Source: an uncultured Pelagibacteraceae bacterium
GTDB taxonomy: Bacteria; Pseudomonadota; Alphaproteobacteria; Pelagibacterales; Pelagibacteraceae
Length of the DNA: 49,933 nucleotides
NCBI GenBank assembly: GCA_902542855.1
Contig: CACBWE010000005.1
Location: forward strand, 1 to 49,933
Direction of reading: 5' to 3'
The notes under the pieces are model-generated. The model saw only the letters and a list, made by a program, of their open reading frames with translations, was not told where the DNA came from and made no database searches. Shown piece after piece: positions 30,306 to 37,963 of this stretch (positions are counted from its first letter, which is position 1; each line of letters begins with the position of its first letter). The position numbers and the translations under genes are program-made.

Positions 30306-32371
30306 TGTCAGAGTTTTTTTTAGAATTATTTAGTGAAGAAATACCTTCAAATCTTCAACAAAATTTAAGGGAGGACTTACTTAAAAGTTTTACTGATTTA
30401 TTTTTAGAAAAATCAATTTTATTTAAAAAAAGCTCGTCATATTCAACCCCAAACAGACTAGTGGTATTATTTGAAGGTGTTCAAAAAAATGTTGTACTAA
30501 AATCTGAGGAGATTAAAGGTCCAAATATTAAGTTACCAGATGCAGCACTCGAGGGGTTTGTTAGGTCAAATAAAATTTTAAAAAAGGATCTCTACCAAAA
30601 GAAAATAGACAAAGGAGAATTTTATTTTTTCAAGTCAAAATCAAAAAAATTGAACACACATGAATTATTAGAAGAATTTATCCCAATATTATTAAATAAA
30701 ATTCAATGGAAAAAATCAATGTATTGGGGAACTTTTGACTTAAATTGGGGTAGACCTTTAAAGTCAATTCTAGCTGTATTTGATAAAAAAAAGTTAAATT
30801 TTAATTTTCACCACCTAACATCTTCTAGCTCAACTTTTATTGATAAAGAATTTGAGGAAAATAAAAAAAAATTCTTAGAATTTAAAAATTATAAAAGTTT
30901 TTTTAAAAAAATTGATATTATCATTGATCATGTTGAAAGAAAAAAGATAATTGAAAAAAAATTCAATAATATATTAAAAAATAAAAATATTAAGATTCAA
31001 CATAATTCTAAATTACTTGATGAAGTTGTAGATTTAACAGATCAACCAAATATCCTTCTTTGTGAATTTGATAAAAAATTTTTAAATATTCCAAAAGAAA
31101 TATTAATTATTACCATGCAATACCATCAAAAATATTTTCCTATATTTGATAATAAAGAAAATATTACCAATGAGTTTTTAGTGGTTGCAAACAAAAAAGA
31201 CAAAAAGGGATTAATTAAATTAGGAAATGAAAGAGTAGTTGAAGCAAGATTAAGCGATGCAGAATTTTTTTGGAAAAAAGATAAATCTCAAAATATGGTC
31301 AAAAAAGTTACTGAATTAAAATTAATGAATTATTTTAAAGGATTAGGAAGTTATTTCGATAAAGCCCAAAGAATGAGAAAATTGGGTGGAATGATATCTG
31401 ATGAACTTTTAATCAGTAAAGAAAAAGTTGAATTGTCAGCATCAATTTGTAAAGTTGATTTATTATCAGAACTAGTAGGTGAATTTCCAGAACTTCAAGG
31501 TGTAATGGGAGGTTATTTTGCTAATGCACAAGGTTTTGATAAAGATTTAGCTTTAGCAATAAGTGAGCAATATTTACCTACAGGTTCAGGTTCAAGAGTT
31601 CCAAAAAAACCATTTAGCATAGCTCTTTCTTTGGCTGATAAAATAGATACTTTAGTTGGTTTTTTTGGTTTAAATCAAAAGCCAACAAGTTCGAAAGATC
31701 CGTATGCTCTAAGAAGATTAGCATTGGGGGTAATAAGAATAATAGTTGAAAATAAAAAAGATTTTAAAATAAAAGATCTAATTAATTATTCTTTAAGCCT
31801 GTATTTAGATCAAGGTTTTGAAATTGATAATCAATCTCTACAAAATGAATTATCAGATTTTTTAATGGATAGATTAAAAAATCACATGAAAGAAGAAAAT
31901 ATTAGAAATGATATAATTCAAGCATCAACTAGTTCTTTTAACTTAGATCAATCTGTTATTATTTTTAATAAAGCTAAACATTTAAATAAAATTATTAACA
32001 AACCAAATGGTTTAGATATTATTGCAAGTTATAAAAGAGCCTCAAACATTTTAGATGGTGAATTAAAAAAAGATAAAATAGAATTATCAAATACAACTGA
32101 CCCTGGAATTTTTAAAACTGAGTTAGAAAAAAACCTATTTAAAAAAATTAGTGAATTAAGGAAATATTTTTCAGGCATTAATAAAGATGAAAATTATGTT
32201 CAAACATTAGACAATTTAGCTGGCGTCAAAAGAGAGGTTTTTGATTTTTTTGATAATGTAATTGTGAACGAAGATGATCTAGTTATAAAGAAGAATAGGC
32301 TGGAACTAATCCAAATGATGTGTAAAACGTTCAACAATTATGTTAATTTTGCTCTAATCGACTCCCGTTAA
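30305..32371 (+). CDS. glyS: Glycyl-tRNA synthetase beta subunit
   Basis: Beta subunit, needed for tRNA binding. [19 protein letters not shown] at the start, GNERVVEARLSDAEFFWKKD in the middle (HD-like region after it), and DPYALRRLALGVIRI and a DALR-like C-terminal helical domain fit GlyS. At 688 residues it is normal. It is joined to glyQ and to ppdK by one-base overlaps, so these genes are a single transcription unit. Confidence 0.96.
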   Translation: MSEFFLELFSEEIPSNLQQNLREDLLKSFTDLFLEKSILFKKSSSYSTPNRLVVLFEGVQKNVVLKSEEIKGPNIKLPDAALEGFVRSNKILKKDLYQKKIDKGEFYFFKSKSKKLNTHELLEEFIPILLNKIQWKKSMYWGTFDLNWGRPLKSILAVFDKKKLNFNFHHLTSSSSTFIDKEFEENKKKFLEFKNYKSFFKKIDIIIDHVERKKIIEKKFNNILKNKNIKIQHNSKLLDEVVDLTDQPNILLCEFDKKFLNIPKEILIITMQYHQKYFPIFDNKENITNEFLVVANKKDKKGLIKLGNERVVEARLSDAEFFWKKDKSQNMVKKVTELKLMNYFKGLGSYFDKAQRMRKLGGMISDELLISKEKVELSASICKVDLLSELVGEFPELQGVMGGYFANAQGFDKDLALAISEQYLPTGSGSRVPKKPFSIALSLADKIDTLVGFFGLNQKPTSSKDPYALRRLALGVIRIIVENKKDFKIKDLINYSLSLYLDQGFEIDNQSLQNELSDFLMDRLKNHMKEENIRNDIIQASTSSFNLDQSVIIFNKAKHLNKIINKPNGLDIIASYKRASNILDGELKKDKIELSNTTDPGIFKTELEKNLFKKISELRKYFSGINKDENYVQTLDNLAGVKREVFDFFDNVIVNEDDLVIKKNRLELIQMMCKTFNNYVNFALIDSR

Positions 32372-35031
32372 TGAAAAAACTTATTTTAAACTTTAATTCT
32401 AAGGATGGTAAAAAAATTAAAAATCCTAAAAACTTTTTAGGAGGAAAAGGTGCTAATCTTTCTGAAATGGGAAGAATGGGTCTTCCTGTGCCTCCTGGTT
32501 TTACAATATCCACAAAAGTTTGTGAAATTTTTTATAAGGATAAAAAAAGATTAAATAAAAGTTTAATTTCTCAAATTAAAAAAGAATTAAAATTAATCGA
32601 AAAAGATGTTTCTAAGAAATTTGGGGACTTAAAAAATCCACTTTTATTATCTGTGCGGTCTGGTGCAAGAGTATCAATGCCAGGTATGATGGATACAATT
32701 CTAAATCTAGGTCTTAACGATAAAACAGTTAAAGCTTTAGCAATTAAAAGTTCAAATGGAAGATTTGCTAAAGACAGTTATAGAAGATTCATTCAAATGT
32801 ACGGTAATGTGGTAATGGGTGTAGAAGGTTATCATTTTGAGGAATTAATTGAAAATTATAAACTTACAAAAGGTGTTTTGTTAGATACAGATTTAGATGA
32901 AAGTGATTGGGATGGATTAATTGAAGATTTTAAAAGAACAGTAAGAGAAAAGACAAAAAAAGATTTTCCTCAAGATGTTCACGAACAATTGTTAGGAGCA
33001 ATAAGCGCAGTATTTTTATCATGGGAAAGTAATAGAGCAAAAGTTTATAGAAAACTAAATCAAATCCCAGCCGAGTGGGGAACTGCTGTAAATGTTCAAT
33101 CAATGGTTTTTGGAAATATGGGTGATGATTGTGCAACGGGAGTTGTGTTTACACGAAATCCATCAGATGGATCAAATGAAATATATGGTGAGTATTTAAT
33201 TAATGCGCAAGGCGAAGATGTTGTAGCGGGCACAAGGACGCCTCAATACATTACGAAAAAAGCTAGGAGAGATGCTAAAGTAAAAGAATTATCAATGGAA
33301 GAGTCTATGCCTAAAGTCTTTAAAGAACTTCAAAAAATTTTGAAAAAATTAGAGACGCATTACAAAGATATGCAAGACGTAGAGTTTACAGTTGAAAATA
33401 GTAAACTATGGATGCTTCAAACAAGATCAGGAAAAAGAACAGCAAAATCAGCAGTGAAGATCGCAGTTGATATGGTTAAAGAAAAATTAATTTCTAAAAA
33501 GGAAGCTGTATTAAGAATTGACCCAAATTCTTTAGACACACTTTTGCACCCTACTTTGGATGAAAAAAGTTCAATTAATGTTATAGCAAATGGATTGCCA
33601 GCATCACCAGGTGCAGCTAGTGGTAAAGTTGTATTTACATCAGAAGACGCTGAAAGATTAACCGCAATGATGCAAGATACAATTTTGGTTAGAGTAGAGA
33701 CCTCCCCAGAAGATATACAAGGAATGCATGCTGCTAGAGGAATTTTGACTGCTAGAGGAGGAATGACAAGTCATGCAGCTGTTGTTGCGAGAGGTATGGG
33801 TAGACCATGTGTATCAGGATCAAGTGAAATTGATATAAACTATGAAAATAAATCTTTTAAAACTTCTTCAATGGAGATTAAAGAAGGAGACGTAATCACT
33901 ATTGATGGCTCAACTGGAAGAATTATTGCTGGAAGTGTTTCAACTGTGAAGCCTGAAATATCTGGTGATTTTTCCAAGTTAATGTCTTGGGCAGATAGCT
34001 TTAGGAAATTAAAAGTAAGAACAAATTCTGAGACACCAAAAGATACCAAAACAGCAAAAGATTTTGGTGCTGAGGGTATTGGATTATGCAGAACTGAACA
34101 TATGTTTTTTGATGAAGAACGAATTTTGTCTGTAAGAGAAATGATATTATCTAAAACAAAAGAAGACAGAGCAATAGCATTACAAAAACTGTTACCACAT
34201 CAAAGAAAGGATTTTATAGATATTTTTAAAATTATGAGTGGATTACCAGTAACGGTTAGATTGTTGGACCCACCATTACATGAATTTTTACCACGTACAG
34301 AAAAAGAAATTAATGAGGTTGCTAGTATAGTTAATCTCTCAGTTAAAGAGGTTGAGTCAAGAATTGAAGAGCTCCATGAGCAAAATCCTATGTTAGGTCA
34401 TAGGGGATGTCGTTTAGGAATATCTTTTCCTGAAATTTATGAAATGCAATGCAAAGCAATATTCGAGGCTTTGGCTTACCTAAAAAAAAATAAAATTAAA
34501 TCTGCATTTCCTGAAATAATGATACCTTTAGTATCTACAGAGGCTGAAATTAAAATAATGAAAGAATTAGTAATTAGAACTGCTAGTCAAGTTCAACGAG
34601 AAAATAAATTGAAAATAGAATTTTTAGTTGGAACGATGATTGAATTACCTAGAGCGGCAATAAAAGCAAAGGAGATTGCTAAGCATGCAGAATTCTTTAG
34701 TTTTGGAACAAATGATTTAACTCAAACTACTTTTGGAATTAGTAGGGATGATAGTGGTAAATTTTTAAATGATTATTTAGAAAACAAAATTTTTTCTGTT
34801 GATCCTTTCGTTTCAATAGATGAAGGAGTTTCAGATTTAGTTGAAATAGCAGTAGAAAAAGGAAGAAAACAAAATAAAAATCTTAAATTAGGTATTTGTG
34901 GAGAGCATGGTGGAGATCCACATAGTATATCATTTTGTTCTAAAGCAGGATTGAATTATGTTTCTTGTTCACCTTATAGAGTTCCTGTTGCAAGGTTGGC
35001 TGCTGCTCAAGCTGAAATTAAAAAAAATTAA
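32371..35031 (+). CDS. ppdK: Pyruvate, phosphate dikinase
   Basis: Interconverts pyruvate, ATP and Pi with PEP, AMP and PPi. The 886-residue protein has an N-terminal ATP-grasp domain (FLGGKGANLSEMGRMGLPVPPGF; later DTILNLGLND), the swivelling His domain with GGMTSHAAVVARGMGRPCVSG, and a C-terminal PEP/pyruvate TIM barrel (GIGLCRTEHMFF, FSFGTNDLTQTTFGISRDD, LGICGEHGGDP). All three domains are intact. In a genome with reduced glycolysis this reversible enzyme can serve gluconeogenesis, an inference. It is the last housekeeping gene before the accessory region. Confidence 0.96.
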   Translation: MKKLILNFNSKDGKKIKNPKNFLGGKGANLSEMGRMGLPVPPGFTISTKVCEIFYKDKKRLNKSLISQIKKELKLIEKDVSKKFGDLKNPLLLSVRSGARVSMPGMMDTILNLGLNDKTVKALAIKSSNGRFAKDSYRRFIQMYGNVVMGVEGYHFEELIENYKLTKGVLLDTDLDESDWDGLIEDFKRTVREKTKKDFPQDVHEQLLGAISAVFLSWESNRAKVYRKLNQIPAEWGTAVNVQSMVFGNMGDDCATGVVFTRNPSDGSNEIYGEYLINAQGEDVVAGTRTPQYITKKARRDAKVKELSMEESMPKVFKELQKILKKLETHYKDMQDVEFTVENSKLWMLQTRSGKRTAKSAVKIAVDMVKEKLISKKEAVLRIDPNSLDTLLHPTLDEKSSINVIANGLPASPGAASGKVVFTSEDAERLTAMMQDTILVRVETSPEDIQGMHAARGILTARGGMTSHAAVVARGMGRPCVSGSSEIDINYENKSFKTSSMEIKEGDVITIDGSTGRIIAGSVSTVKPEISGDFSKLMSWADSFRKLKVRTNSETPKDTKTAKDFGAEGIGLCRTEHMFFDEERILSVREMILSKTKEDRAIALQKLLPHQRKDFIDIFKIMSGLPVTVRLLDPPLHEFLPRTEKEINEVASIVNLSVKEVESRIEELHEQNPMLGHRGCRLGISFPEIYEMQCKAIFEALAYLKKNKIKSAFPEIMIPLVSTEAEIKIMKELVIRTASQVQRENKLKIEFLVGTMIELPRAAIKAKEIAKHAEFFSFGTNDLTQTTFGISRDDSGKFLNDYLENKIFSVDPFVSIDEGVSDLVEIAVEKGRKQNKNLKLGICGEHGGDPHSISFCSKAGLNYVSCSPYRVPVARLAAAQAEIKKN

Positions 35032-35040
35032 ATTAAATAG

Positions 35041-35056
35041 GGGGCGTTCTGTTGCC
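35041..35056. repeat. ssrA-end repeat, copy 1 (distal attachment-like site)
   Basis: GGGGCGTTCTGTTGCC, identical over 16 bases to the end of the ssrA coding piece at 36716-36731. The sequence diverges soon after and lacks the pairing GGTGCCCC half. It begins nine bases after the ppdK stop, marking the outer boundary of the accessory region. Confidence 0.8.
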
Positions 35057-35160
35057 CGGCATTAGATAGAAAATAGGATATTTGCTTACTTATTAAAACT
35101 ACTTCGTTGCAAAATTCATTGTCAGAACGACATATTTTCTTTTCAGTTGGTTTTTTTATA

Positions 35161-35190
35161 TTGTCTCTTCATTGTATATATTAATATAAT
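35161..35190 (+). promoter_or_regulatory. Promoter of the 126-residue island gene, probably leaderless
   Basis: TTGTCT (35161-35166), 18 bases, then a perfect TATAAT (35185-35190). The ATG follows only six bases later and no Shine-Dalgarno precedes it. Initiation at the usual distance would start the RNA at the ATG itself. Confidence 0.5.
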
Positions 35191-35196
35191 ACTCTC

Positions 35197-35577
35197 ATGA
35201 AAAAAATTTCTTTATACATCTTTCTGATTTTGATGTTTTGTAATGTTGGTTTTACTGCCATCAATGATGTCTATTATTGTGAAACGGATAAAGTTGTAAA
35301 AACAACTGATAAAGAGTTTATTGAATTCAAAGGAGAAAAATTTAAGTTTAAAAGAACTCAAAATAATTTAGAGTATGGTTCTGGTGGTTTTTTTAACGAT
35401 TACGAAACACAAGTATTACAAAATTCTGGAGAATATTTTTGGGGAGGAACTGAGTGGGAAAGATTTATATATTATGATGGTAAATTTGTCTTTTCTAATC
35501 TTCTAAACACACATGGACAGAAAGAGAATCCAAGACATCAAATAATCAGCATAGTTGCTACATGTGAAATATTTTAA
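35197..35577 (+). CDS. Hypothetical secreted protein (island segment 1)
   Basis: A 126-residue protein I do not recognise. It has a clean signal peptide (KKISLYIFLILMFCNVGFTA, about 1-21) followed by a mature part of about 105 residues rich in Phe, Tyr, Glu and Asn, with one Cys near the new N-terminus (CETDK) and one at the end (ATCEIF) that could form a disulphide. There is no membrane helix or lipobox. It lies alone between ssrA-end copies 1 and 2. A periplasmic location is predicted; function is unknown. Confidence 0.7.
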   Translation: MKKISLYIFLILMFCNVGFTAINDVYYCETDKVVKTTDKEFIEFKGEKFKFKRTQNNLEYGSGGFFNDYETQVLQNSGEYFWGGTEWERFIYYDGKFVFSNLLNTHGQKENPRHQIISIVATCEIF

Positions 35578-35616
35578 ATTAATTAAAGTGCCGCTTCAAA
35601 AATAATTATTAAAAAA

Positions 35617-35640
35617 GGGGCGTTCTGTTACCAGATGCCC
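35617..35640. repeat. ssrA-end repeat, copy 2
   Basis: Matches the ssrA end over its first 16 bases with one change (GGGGCGTTCTGTTACC), then CAG-TGCCC with a further G-to-A change. Six A residues precede it; read on the minus strand the site therefore ends in GCCCC followed by T6, like an intrinsic terminator. Confidence 0.8.
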
Positions 35641-35658
35641 TTAACGATAAGGGCATCT
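35633..35658 (-). terminator. Hairpin after the 79-residue gene, built on ssrA-end copy 2
   Basis: AGATGCCCTTA and TAAGGGCATCT form a perfect 11-bp stem with a four-base loop, starting eight bases beyond the stop of the minus-strand gene at 35666. On the minus strand it is followed, after the rest of repeat copy 2, by six T residues. It probably ends that transcript. One arm is part of the attachment-like repeat, the other is unique. Confidence 0.6.
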
Positions 35659-35665
35659 AATTAAA

Positions 35666-35905
35666 TTATCTTGAGAAAATACTTCTTATTAATCCTGTAA
35701 ATAAAGCAAATCCAACATAAACTACCATGATTATTAATGGAATCGCAATCCACATTCCAATCGTACTTAATACACAAAAGTCTGCAATCGTGAAGTCAAA
35801 AGGAACTGGGCAAGAGTTGACATTTATAACTCTTGCATGTGCATAGTTACCTACAGTTAAAAAATATAAAAACAAGATCCATTTGTTTATTTTATTTTTA
35901 ATCAT
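35666..35905 (-). CDS. Hypothetical small membrane protein with signal peptide (island segment 2)
   Basis: A 79-residue protein not recognised. A signal peptide (about 1-24, ending NYAHA) precedes a short exposed part with two Cys (NSC and DFC, about residues 31 and 43), then one strong membrane helix (about 48-71, IGMWIAIPLIIMVVYVGFALF) and a basic end (LIRSIFSR). The layout resembles small exported single-span proteins such as phage coat proteins or pilins, but there is no motif to prove either. It is divergent from the 76-residue gene and shares a mirror-image promoter with it. Confidence 0.65.
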   Translation of the reverse strand: MIKNKINKWILFLYFLTVGNYAHARVINVNSCPVPFDFTIADFCVLSTIGMWIAIPLIIMVVYVGFALFTGLIRSIFSR

Positions 35906-36002
35906 GATTTTAATATAATATTTAATTGGATAAATTCTTGTCCAAGATAAATTATAAATTTGGACAATACTTTTAAGAAAAAAATATTATATTTTGAGTA
36001 TG
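35903..36002. promoter_or_regulatory. Twin divergent promoters with TTGGACAA boxes
   Basis: Reading outwards on each strand, TTGGACAA is followed at the same distance by TATTATATT (-10 region, starting at position 26) and the start codon (position 41). The arms start at 35945 on minus and 35960 on plus and agree at 27 of 40 positions. A third half-site, TTGGATAA (35926-35933), makes a palindrome with TTGTCCAA (35938-35945). The promoters probably arose by duplication and may share one regulator. Neither start codon has a Shine-Dalgarno. Confidence 0.55.
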
Positions 36003-36224
36003 AACAAATATATAGATGCTTACAATAGTATGGGAAATTCAGGGTTTGAATTAATAGACTTTGTTTTTAAAGTTTGTGTAATAGTTCTTGTTGATTTGGC
36101 AAATTTAATAGGAATATCATATGAGGCGATAAACATTATTATTTTTGTTTTTTTGCAACCAGCATTAATCCTATTATTTTTTATTCTTTGGAGAAAAGAG
36201 CGAAGAAAAAATAAAGTAGTTTAA
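36000..36224 (+). CDS. Hypothetical small two-span membrane protein (island segment 2)
   Basis: About 74 residues, unrecognised. Two hydrophobic segments (FVFKVCVIVLVDLANLIG and IIIFVFLQPALILLFFILW) and a basic tail RKERRKNK place it in the inner membrane. An in-frame TTG at 35994 would add two residues; I prefer the ATG at 36000 because it occupies exactly the place of the ATG in the mirror-image promoter of the divergent gene. The stop lies two bases before ssrA-end copy 3. Confidence 0.6.
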   Translation: MNKYIDAYNSMGNSGFELIDFVFKVCVIVLVDLANLIGISYEAINIIIFVFLQPALILLFFILWRKERRKNKVV

Positions 36225-36226
36225 AA

Positions 36227-36251
36227 GGGGCGTTCTGTTGCCAGGTGCCCC
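36227..36251. repeat. ssrA-end repeat, copy 3 (most complete)
   Basis: All 25 bases from GGGGCGTT to GGTGCCCC equal the true ssrA end. Similarity continues inwards: 11 of the next 16 bases agree with the ssrA coding piece (for example GTTTG and TTA), so this copy includes a diverged piece of tmRNA coding sequence up to about 36267. Confidence 0.85.
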
Positions 36252-36310
36252 GAACTTTGTTTGATTATAGCCAATTATTTTTCCATAAACACTTAAATTT
36301 TACGTGTCAG

Positions 36311-36330
36311 GACGAGTAGAGGACGAGTAA
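36311..36330. repeat. GACGAGTA repeat, left copy
   Basis: GACGAGTAGAGGACGAGTAA matches 36640-36659 at 17 of 20 positions in the same orientation. Its second GACGAGT can also pair with ACTCGTC at 36337-36343. Two copies flank the 71-residue gene. They may be integrase arm sites or regulator sites; nothing proves either. Confidence 0.6.
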
Positions 36331-36335
36331 AAATC

Positions 36336-36348
36336 AACTCGTCACAAA
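36336..36348. repeat. Inverted repeat arm AACTCGTCACAAA
   Basis: Twelve bases (ACTCGTCACAAA) are the exact reverse complement of TTTGTGACGAGT at 36635-36646. The two arms enclose about 290 bp containing only the 71-residue gene, a layout like a tiny non-autonomous element, though no flanking target duplication is apparent. Confidence 0.55.
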
Positions 36349-36384
36349 CAATTGGATTTGATAAAATATTTTTAGGAGGAAATT

Positions 36385-36600
36385 ATGGATACATATACGA
36401 AGTTTATATTATCAATTATCGCAGTTGGAATATTAGGTTTGAATTATCACTTGTTTAATGGTGAAATTATGAACCAAGCACATGCAGCAAGTAACCAAAT
36501 ACATAAAATTGCAATATGTGAACCTGGCACAGATAGATGTGCTAGAATAAGCACAGGTAGACATGCAGGAGAATTGGTTATTTATAATAACGGAAGATAA
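36385..36600 (+). CDS. Hypothetical small exported protein (island segment 3)
   Basis: 71 residues, unrecognised. A membrane or signal segment (about 6-25, FILSIIAVGILGLNYHLF) is followed by NQAHAAS, where a signal peptidase could cut. The mature part has two Cys eight or so residues apart (ICEPGTDRC), likely a disulphide, and ends in AGELVIYNNGR. Unlike the other island genes it has a strong AGGAGG ribosome binding site. It is enclosed by the GACGAGTA and TTTGTGACGAGT repeats. Periplasmic location is predicted; function is unknown. Confidence 0.65.
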   Translation: MDTYTKFILSIIAVGILGLNYHLFNGEIMNQAHAASNQIHKIAICEPGTDRCARISTGRHAGELVIYNNGR

Positions 36601-36634
36601 TTGAAAGTTTGGTAGTACATAAAAAAATTTACTT

Positions 36635-36659
36635 TTTGTGACGAGTAAAGGACGACTCA
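36635..36659. repeat. GACGAGTA repeat, right copy with inverted arm
   Basis: Contains TTTGTGACGAGT (inverted copy of 36337-36348) running into GACGAGTAAAGGACGACTCA (direct copy of 36311-36330, 17 of 20). It lies about 57 bases from the ssrA end at 36716. Confidence 0.6.
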
Positions 36660-36715
36660 CAAGGTTGTATTTTTTAAATAACGTTGAAACTGAAAACTAA
36701 ATTAACAAATGAGAA

Positions 36716-36740
36716 GGGGCGTTCTGTTGCCAGGTGCCCC
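36716..36740. repeat. ssrA-end repeat, copy 4 (resident, functional ssrA end)
   Basis: The 25 bases that end the ssrA coding piece. GGGGC and GCCCC form the last hairpin of the RNA. This is the template of copies 1-3 and the expected chromosomal attachment site. Confidence 0.85.
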
Positions 36741-36770
36741 AGACCCCGTTTGCTTAATTAACTAAGTTAA

Positions 36771-36800
36771 TTAGGCAGCAAGTGCGTAACTTTCGTTAGC
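36771..36800 (-). other. tmRNA tag reading frame, peptide ANESYALAA
   Basis: Ten codons from resume codon GCT (36800-36798) to TAA (36773-36771) encode Ala-Asn-Glu-Ser-Tyr-Ala-Leu-Ala-Ala. The E. coli tag is ANDENYALAA, so the ClpXP-recognised YALAA end is kept while the front is one residue shorter and altered. The first Ala comes from the charged tmRNA in the usual one-piece numbering. Confidence 0.92.
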
Positions 36801-36893
36801 AATTATAAATTAGCCCGTTACGGTGGAACAATCCCGAACGAAAGAATAGCCTTTAGTCACCCGTCGAATCTAGTTCACCCCCATAAGTTGTAA

Positions 36894-36974
36894 TGGTGGA
36901 GGTGGTGGGTACTGCCCCCACGTCCGCAATGGTTATTACGAAATTCGTTTATCGTCGTAGTTGGAAAACCAACG
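36894..36974 (-). ncRNA. tmRNA acceptor piece
   Basis: Ends in TCCACCA at 36894, with CCA encoded. The T arm is GTGGG and CCCAC around a seven-base loop GGCAGTA that does not match the standard TTCRANY. The 5' end probably lies at the hairpin GTTGG-TTTT-CCAAC (36973-36960). Eleven bases (36883-36893) separate it from the coding piece and must be removed during maturation. Confidence 0.82.
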
Positions 36975-36979
36975 TTATT

Positions 36980-37007
36980 AATATAAAAGTAATTACAACA
37001 GATTCAA
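36980..37007 (-). promoter_or_regulatory. Promoter of ssrA
   Basis: On the minus strand TTGAAT (37007-37002), 16 bases, then TATATT (36985-36980). The expected start lies about seven bases further, just at the first acceptor-piece hairpin. It sits between ssrA and the divergent thyX start, 9 bp from the thyX ATG, so the two genes share this short region. Confidence 0.5.
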
Positions 37008-37015
37008 TAACAATC

Positions 37016-37963
37016 ATGAAATTAACTAAAGAACAACAAGAAGAGATAAAAAATCAACAATCTCAAAGCAACCAAACAAAAAGAGTTACTGCTCCTGAGC
37101 TTGAAAAAATCCTATATGAAGCAATACCAGCTTTAGATCATGGTTTTGTTAGAGTGGTTGATTATATGGGGGATGATACGTCCATCGTTCAATCAGCAAG
37201 AGTTTCATATGGAAAAGGAACGAAACAAGTTTCAACAGACAAAGGACTAATAAAATATTTGATGAGGCATTGGCACAGCACTCCATTCGAAATGTGTGAA
37301 ATTAAATATCATGTTAAGCTTCCAATTTTTATTGCAAGACAATGGATTAGACATAGAACTGCAAATGTAAATGAATATTCTGCAAGGTATTCAATTTTGG
37401 ATAAAGAATTTTATTTGCCATCACAAGAAAATTTAGCCGCTCAATCAACTAGTAACAGACAGGGTAGAGGAGATGTATTGGAAGGAAAACAGGCACAGGA
37501 AGTTTTAGAACTTCTAAAAAGCGATGCAGAGAGAACTTATGATAATTATGAGACTATGCTTAATGAAAGATTTGATGGATCAACTATTGATGAAAATAAA
37601 AAAGGTCTAGCGAGAGAACTTGCAAGAATGAATTTAACACTAAATACTTATACCCAATGGTATTGGAAAACTGATTTATTAAATTTAATGAATTTTTTAA
37701 GATTAAGAGCTGATAGTCACGCTCAATATGAAATTAGAGTTTATGCAGACATTATGCTGGATACTGTAAAAAAATGGGTTCCTATAACTTATGATGCATT
37801 TATGGATTATAGAGTAGGAGGTACAGAAGTTTCTGCAAAAGGAAAAGTTATAATTCAAAAACTTATTAAAGGTGAAACTTTAGATGTTGAAAGTTCTGGA
37901 TTGTCTAAAAGAGAGTGGAATGAATTAATGACTGCTTTTGATCTTAAAGATAAGTTGATTTAA
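37016..37963 (+). CDS. thyX: Flavin-dependent thymidylate synthase
   Basis: Makes dTMP from dUMP with FAD, NADPH and methylene-THF, yielding THF directly, unlike ThyA. The signature [11 protein letters not shown] (RHRx7S, residues 112-122) is intact. I place the start at the ATG at 37016 (315 residues). The in-frame extension to 36893 runs backwards through the tmRNA acceptor piece and is not expected to be translated. It ends overlapping the mrp stop by about 20 bases (convergent). Confidence 0.94.

Follow-up and report, generated by a model that had tools for sequence, protein, structure and literature searches.

We analyzed a 49,933-nucleotide stretch of DNA (hereafter, the window) from an uncultured Pelagibacteraceae bacterium of the SAR11 group, in which the interval between ppdK and the transfer-messenger RNA (tmRNA) gene ssrA carries repeated copies of the ssrA 3′ end. 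This interval is very probably a stack of site-specifically integrated, non-autonomous mini-elements, for which the integrase would be supplied in trans. The putative attachment site is the 3′ end of the ssrA coding piece, in the last pseudoknot. The evidence comprises the core copies themselves, empty sites and stacks in relatives, arm sites that match between the two ends of an element, integrase-bearing elements with the same core (some also with the same arms) and the recurrence of one window element, element 2, in other genomes. Action in trans is suggested because integrase genes are absent, arms are shared and cargo is varied.

The ssrA gene was located at 36712 to 37011 on the minus strand (RF01849, alpha_tmRNA, 221.8 bits, E 5e-63; RF04321, 130.3 bits), and ARAGORN reported a permuted tmRNA (tmRNA*) with the tag ANESYALAA. 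The core, GGGGCGTTCTGTTGCC, is found on the plus strand at 35041, 36227 and 36716 as exact copies and at 35617 with one mismatch. Since ssrA is on the minus strand with its 3′ end toward ppdK, three copies lie downstream of ssrA and the copy at 36716 lies inside its 3′ end. These matches bear out the original prediction, made from the letters of the window, that the coding-piece end of a permuted two-piece tmRNA is the target and that four direct copies in a single orientation mark off segments of 576, 610 and 489 bp. No further core was found in the window at up to three mismatches, and none beyond these four in its own assembly (836 kb, 60% complete) at up to two. The predicted improbability of such a 16-base match was confirmed, as 0.06 matches were expected by chance and none of 100 shuffles reached four copies. 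A chance origin was ruled out by shuffles, reversed-pattern controls and strand bias.

The flanks also agreed with the prediction. The distal host flank, ppdK (32371 to 35031, plus strand; TIGR01828, 1372 bits), ends nine bases before the first copy, and the proximal host flank is thyX (37016 to 37963, plus strand; TIGR02170, 205 bits). The open reading frames (ORFs) in the segments are at most 126 amino acids (aa) long and therefore too short for an integrase, as had been claimed for the stack. All four cores are oriented like ssrA, on the minus strand. Core copy 0 (36716 to 36731) would be the regenerated target end, where GGGGC/GCCCC and TCTG/CAGA pairing is possible as judged by eye. Copy 1 (36227 to 36242, exact) has at least 25 bp in common with ssrA, and GTTC/GAAC replaces TCTG/CAGA of the possible pseudoknot (by eye). 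By itself this copy gives a weak tmRNA match (36296 to 36224, 25.6 bits, below the cut-off), and the second, weak tmRNA match in the genome is this core copy, not another gene. Copy 2 (35617 to 35632, one mismatch) has a different left half and abuts a perfect 11-bp hairpin. Copy 3 (35041 to 35056, exact) adjoins ppdK and may be the displaced original junction, because the sequence on its ppdK side looks like that at empty sites in relatives; the ssrA-side flank of the window resembles the P′ arm of family A, described below.

An RF01849 search of 201 genomes of the genus gave a match in 164, of which 144 were above the cut-off. We compared 120 ssrA regions from relatives with the window (121 loci), including about 1 kb upstream of ssrA (median, 1001 bases). 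Empty sites with one core, which the integration model called for, were present in seven of the 120 relatives. In these, 10 to 32 bp separate the core from the ppdK stop codon, PpdK ends 26 to 48 bp past the core start, and two of the seven have a 98%-identical PpdK. Intermediate stacks were likewise found: counting the copy in ssrA itself, 84 loci have one copy, 22 two, six three, four four, three five, one seven and one eight. At up to three mismatches, 71 further copies lie downstream on the strand of ssrA, whereas the opposite strand has only two, each with three mismatches. No core was detected upstream of ssrA within the roughly 1 kb examined, and the reversed-pattern control gave none. 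In nine of the 121 loci, including the window, the last copy is less than 60 bp from the end of ppdK.

Conservation varies along the core. Positions 4 to 10 are all intact in 121 of 121 ssrA ends, 63 of 71 distal copies and eight of nine copies adjoining ppdK. The corresponding numbers are 121, 53 and four for positions 11 to 16, and 118, 43 and seven for positions 1 to 3. This pattern, together with the flanks, is what serial insertion by an integrase would leave. The 3′ end of the target appears to be regenerated and a displaced copy to remain at the far end, as is typical of integrative elements directed to tRNA or tmRNA genes; the integrase gene of its own that such an element carries is absent from the window stack.

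The 71 core-bounded segments come from 37 of the 121 loci and range from 129 to 6173 bp (median, 1086 bp). When the ends were grouped with the core excluded, those preceding the distal core gave three groups (30, 20 and 3 members) and 18 singles, and those following the proximal core gave two groups (13 and 9 members), nine pairs and 31 singles. Similar ends enclose differing cargo. The shortest segments include two with an ORF directly between the cores (L042_e4, 239 bp; L097_e3, 213 bp). At L110, positions 281 to 410 from the ssrA start, L110_e1 is a 129-bp fusion of two arms with no cargo, resembling a miniature inverted-repeat transposable element for an integrase system.

Alignment of the segment ends revealed arms, namely tandem repeats spaced 11 or 12 bp and located about 45 to 80 bp from the core. 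The repeat sequence varies between elements and tends to agree between the two ends of one element. To quantify this agreement, GC-containing 7-mers shared between the two arms of an element were compared with permutations; 22 elements were left out of this test. Family A (20 elements) had an arm sum of 62, whereas permutations averaged 12.9 and none of 20,000 reached the observed value; for families C, D and E (16 elements) the sum was 44 against 15.9 (P 1e-4). With these families pooled, the counts were 25 of 36 within elements and 254 of 1260 between different elements. Window element 1 and families A and C/D/E thus appear to have the arrangement of a lambda-type attP, in which arm-type sites flank a short-overlap core on both sides; family B does not.

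One arm type could be followed across the genus. The tandem GAAGT pattern occurs at 61 places in 42 of 399 genomes, and the reversed pattern at none. The core was nearby at 23 of 30 GAAGT loci examined; five of the other seven have a different core, which is the groEL core described below in those that were traced. Searches of IMG/VR for GAAGT arms gave 22 and 0 stretches, and in none of the 22 was the core on the strand of the arm. One of the 22 is on L230, a phage-like IMG/VR contig of 57% GC that lacks the core and on which an integrase lies 2.1 kb from a triple CACCGAAGT repeat. Separately, L071 has a P′ arm with CTATGTACC sites and a P arm with CAATGAAG sites, perhaps as a hybrid of two families.

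Element 1 (36227 to 36731; 489 bp core to core) belongs to family A, both of its arms clustering with other elements of this family, and carries one small gene. Its P′ arm-type sites (36640 to 36657, minus strand; arm alignments) are GACGAGT (36640) and GACGACT (36651) as read on the plus strand, 11 bp apart. Its P arm-type sites (36311 to 36343, minus strand) are GACGAGT at 36311 and 36322 and an inverted ACTCGTC at 36337. GACGAGT or ACTCGTC occurs in the window only at these three P-arm sites and at 36640, and the P-arm layout is matched in the P arm of the integrase-bearing L345. The likely cargo is a 71-aa ORF (36385 to 36600, plus strand).

Element 2 (35617 to 36242; 610 bp) has no recognized arm sites and recurs in other arrays. 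Its cargo is two small ORFs of 74 aa (36000 to 36224, plus strand; 76 aa from the TTG at 35994) and 79 aa (35666 to 35905, minus strand). The latter is followed by the 11-bp hairpin at 35633 to 35658, which is flush with core copy 2 and is possibly the terminator of the 79-aa gene. Element 3 (35041 to 35632; 576 bp) has a family B end on the ppdK side, where its P arm (35101 to 35174, minus strand) aligns with this family and contains CAAYGAAGT-type sites, one of them degenerate; arm sites are found on this side only. Its single small gene is a 126-aa ORF (35197 to 35577, plus strand) with a signal-peptide-like start, as judged by eye. In a Pfam scan (E up to 1), the 71-aa and 126-aa ORFs had no match at all, and no convincing function emerged for any of the four small proteins.

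Intact elements with a tyrosine integrase had also been sought at this site as a sign of integration. In L112, a tyrosine integrase gene lies about 100 bp from the ssrA core; the P arm of this element falls in the group of 20 and its P′ arm stands alone. A search of the 399 genus genomes with the L112 integrase gave a match in 21, the closest two (100% and 52% identical) both being at ssrA, and seven of 16 remaining matches that were scanned lie near tRNA-Met or tRNA-Leu. One genome scan found eight integrase loci, of which five are at the ssrA end (the 100% and 52% matches included) and three are complete to a second core, at 6.2, 5.4 and 4.5 kb. The integrase is present in L344, L345, L346 and L348, and in part in L350. 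R199, H277, R280, H303 and Y312 are conserved between two of the integrases. Ten proteins of these candidate helper elements were scanned and included integrases (PF00589, phrog_1) and primase or AAA proteins; five had no PHROG match, and no virion family was found among the ten.

The arm sites of these elements are ACTCGTC in L345, GGCGTC in L346 and L348, and GTCGGC in L350. Among 70 other elements, three have L345 arm 7-mers in both arms (L118_e1, score 17; L068_e1, score 15; window element 1, score 13). Element 1 and L345 have in common the P-arm layout TGACGAGT-n-GATTTT-n-ACTCG...ACTCGTC...ACGTA. The same helper test paired L346 with L049_e2, L348 with L049_e2 and L097_e3, and L350 with L116_e1, L107_e1 and L060_e1. 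No helper for the GAAGT arms was found among the integrases near tRNA genes, and IMG/VR held no relative of the L112 integrase. In GenBank phages, the L345 integrase matched 490 records, all below 60% identity.

The exact core was found on 14 IMG/VR contigs. On at least seven of them (L156, L157, L158, L159, L162, L163 and L168), which resemble T4-type phages from a reading of their proteins, the core is the ssrA end; on contigs where it is not a phage ssrA end, it lies within unrelated DNA. Two-piece tmRNA in marine phages was already known, according to the accessible text of PMC9004378.

We propose that a tyrosine integrase supplied in trans would recombine an element circle with the core at the end of the ssrA coding piece, in its final pseudoknot; AACAGAA (core positions 4 to 10) most likely contains the overlap. 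The right core half of the element would regenerate the tmRNA end, and the old half would be pushed downstream. After repeated insertion at the regenerated end, the most recent arrival would adjoin ssrA, and the original junction with host DNA would adjoin ppdK. The arm-type repeats near both ends would set mobility, so that an element could move whenever the cell contains an integrase that recognizes its arms. An integrase-plus-primase element of 4.5 to 6.2 kb is a possible source of the enzyme. The armless element 2 was perhaps carried along between armed neighbors and may move in cis.

Element 2 and the core were also found away from ssrA. Close relatives of element 2 are L097_e1 (86% identical end to end) and L082_e1 (92% over 597 nt). 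Element 2 (594 bp) matched 20 of the 399 genomes, nine of them (including the window) over at least 230 bp. The eight other long matches lie beside ssrA (four), beside ppdK (two) and behind rnhA (two); behind rnhA, parts of the element are present (347 and 485 bp), and in the second of these copies, L359, the core was not found at up to three mismatches. Regions with a core away from ssrA were inspected in two sets (12 of 20 in the first and 20 of 20 in the second). The second set comprises eight regions behind rnhA, five behind pnp before fabI, two behind a hydratase-like gene and five unplaced ones; the first comprises one unplaced region and otherwise these same three places, of which the third reaches xsc. 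Some of these sites hold a single core and others hold arrays. Among the 30 best-scoring of 73 rnhA loci, the core is within 12 bp of the stop codon in 12 (five as arrays) and further off in two, and 16 have no core at up to three mismatches.

The gene names rnhA, pnp, fabI, xsc, thrC and groEL were checked, the hydratase and fabI matches being below the cut-offs of their own models; the assignment of a gene beside thrC as a peroxiredoxin was dropped, as it had no NCBIfam match. At the groEL end, elements with CAATGAAGT arms use another core, GAATGTAAT (L251, L252, L253, L260 and L262). This sequence is also at the groEL end itself in L251 and L262, and eight of its nine bases are in L260; the L253 core has diverged. 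The original prediction held that the integration model would fail if the 16-mer occurred at many unrelated sites. It does occur at rnhA, at pnp and near xsc, but these sites can carry the same arrays, and we therefore regard them as widening the model.

Several results weigh against the proposed stack of trans-mobilized elements. Excision, a circle or transfer was not observed, and the support comes from comparison of sequences. One-copy loci make up 84 of the 121, and in 51 of the 58 where the ppdK end was located, other DNA without a second core lies between ssrA and ppdK, the other seven being the empty sites; some of this DNA is housekeeping genes in another order. The copy search at up to three mismatches favors intact copies. 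Of the 71 segments, 22, including element 2, fit no arm family. Assignment to families was by eye, and elements that are related do not count as independent. Family B (13 elements, including window element 3) showed no signal in the arm-matching test (2 against 3.8 permuted). Integrases at least 50% identical to the helper are at ssrA in only two of the 399 genus genomes, and none of families B, C, D and E could be assigned a helper. L344 has no convincing partner, its sole match being L116_e3, and this element, L097_e3 and L060_e1 look like chance matches in the helper test.

It is possible, though unlikely, that each segment is what remains of a full-size autonomous ssrA island, immobile since a deletion removed its integrase. 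In the accessible text of PMC5704250, tandem members without an integrase are usually explained by decay, and decay would suit the degeneration of some distal cores and the cargo-free fusion L110_e1. It does not explain well why differing cargo lies inside similar ends, why arms are matched within elements, or why element 2 recurs in other arrays. Furthermore, a tblastn search of the 121 loci with the L112 integrase, which would miss other integrase families, detected no other clear relative, intact or broken (next best E 0.067). The original prediction had left the choice between three successive insertions with decay and small cassettes moved in trans. For element 1, movement in trans fits better, because matched arm sites are at both ends and are shared with an integrase-bearing element; the armless element 2 and the one-sided element 3 do not lend it this support.

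A cassette array of the integron kind, in which the core acts as an attC-like hairpin, exchange takes place from core to core and the arms are incidental, is quite improbable. The recurrence of element 2 without arms and the ORFs lying directly between cores in L042_e4 and L097_e3 would be natural for such cassettes. The four window cores also fold into short GC-rich hairpins, those at 36716 and 35041 barely beating shuffles (z −1.2 each). However, arms match between ends and are common to the integrase elements, and the helper proteins are phage-type integrases (PF00589, phrog_1).

Even less credit is due to the idea that the motif is a repeated hairpin that persists because it terminates transcription and that has spread through ordinary homologous recombination. 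Copies do stand at gene 3′ ends (ssrA, rnhA and pnp), and TT follows within three bases of the core in 123 of 192 copies at ssrA loci, but empty sites, arms and integrase genes about 100 bp from the core would be left unexplained. Replication slippage that duplicated the ssrA 3′ end in tandem would give the direct orientation of all copies, yet it can practically be dismissed, as it is refuted by the left flanks, which belong to families common to other genomes. Moreover, no repeat found in the window region exceeds 48 nt, and the segments are therefore not copies of each other.

The cargo of the mini-elements was surveyed across the loci. Among 119 mechanically chosen ORFs of at least 60 aa, some of which are surely not genes, 86 run against ssrA (P 1.3e-6). 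We scanned 90 of the 94 ORFs of at least 95 aa, including the L112 helper genes. Among the matches listed are two each for type I methyltransferase, restriction and specificity families, two N6/N4 DNA methylases, six for the mad2 model, and a few for adhesin E, polysaccharide lyase, trypsin-like peptidase and methyltransferases. A type I restriction-modification pair occurs in the first elements of L049 and L064 (94% identical over 3788 nt), and the other end of the L049 element is similar to the second L064 element. Small secreted-looking proteins with a SIGDSLL motif are found repeatedly among the cargo, in elements at ssrA, near xsc and at groEL (L068_e2, L068_e3, L245 and L252). The L104 array contains a fragment (1494 to 1751 from the ssrA start) that matches the 3′ end of ppdK at 70% identity, and a complete ppdK is also present.

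Tandem ssrA islands, some without an integrase, are already known from Dehalococcoides. As far as the accessible text of PMC3146451 goes, these islands stack downstream of ssrA with each member closed by an ssrA 3′-end repeat, as in SAR11; 15 of 31 lack the integration module and may be cis-mobilizable. They use a serine recombinase and T-loop insertion and measure about 12 kb in the case of vcr islands (PMC3146451). In contrast, the SAR11 array has tyrosine integrases, a coding-piece pseudoknot as the target, segments with a median of 1.1 kb and matched arm sites. Williams, in a 2003 article on traffic at the tmRNA gene, reportedly described cyanobacterial integration at the non-tRNA-like 3′ end of permuted ssrA, for integrase-bearing elements in that other lineage. 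Islander-type tRNA and tmRNA islands resemble the array in that the target is restored and a displaced fragment marks the far end (PMC4383910). In its accessible text, the Islander procedure requires an integrase in every tandem member, so that the SAR11 arrays would be filtered out, and it lists four tandems of three or more.

Cis-mobilizable elements (CIMEs) and their accretion are a second known parallel (PMC5704250, in the part accessible): putative att sites are kept, integration genes are absent, and members stand in tandem at one target. The window elements resemble them in these respects, with cores at both ends and ORFs of at most 126 aa, and appear to lack integration and transfer genes. 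CIMEs are described in that text as decayed integrative and conjugative or integrative and mobilizable elements moved in cis, whereas the similar ends and changing cargo seen here point to movement in trans. Tycheposons, additive islands and the PICMI and VEIME satellites likewise bring cargo to RNA gene ends in streamlined marine or freshwater bacteria. The Methylophilaceae additive island has recurring repeats of a tRNA-Lys end (accessible text of PMC10872708), and PICMI and VEIME are named as small phage satellites in that of PMC11389934. Tycheposons are 4 to 200 kb long, target tRNA genes and have a tyrosine recombinase; the segments here are 0.1 to 6.2 kb long, lie at a tmRNA gene, mostly lack a recognized recombinase and fall outside that definition. 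In the same order, a phosphonate operon of Pelagibacterales has a tyrosine recombinase near the acquired genes; it is a single operon at tRNA genes, and the accessible part of PMC12416821 does not mention a tmRNA array. The target, the size, the matched arms, the helpers and the extra sites are new here. No report of this array was found in the literature covered, which left out most subscription journals.

SAR11 genomes are small and are commonly described as poor in mobile elements, and the route by which accessory genes, restriction systems included, are gained and lost is therefore an open question. We consider it conceivable, though somewhat short of probable, that SAR11 bacteria share an integron-like gene economy without a resident integrase. 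In such an economy, a pool of mini-elements would have a common tmRNA-pseudoknot core, seeded also elsewhere, and interchangeable arm codes (ACTCGTC, ACGAC, GGCGTC, GGCAC, TCGG, ACACGAAGT, ACATTGAAGT and CTATGTACC), and every code would be recognized by the integrase of its own small satellite. The core would have been seeded behind rnhA and pnp and near xsc, and related arms occur with another core at groEL; thus, the same cargo could settle at several sites of a streamlined genome. With their matched arms, the elements would offer natural material for studying how tyrosine integrases come to read different arm sites and yet retain one core. Sites that are empty, single or stacked could be counted in single-cell or metagenome sets. 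If the proposed mechanism is true, an array of one-gene elements at the tmRNA end, with arm codes that can be read, would be both a route and a marker for gene gain in these bacteria.

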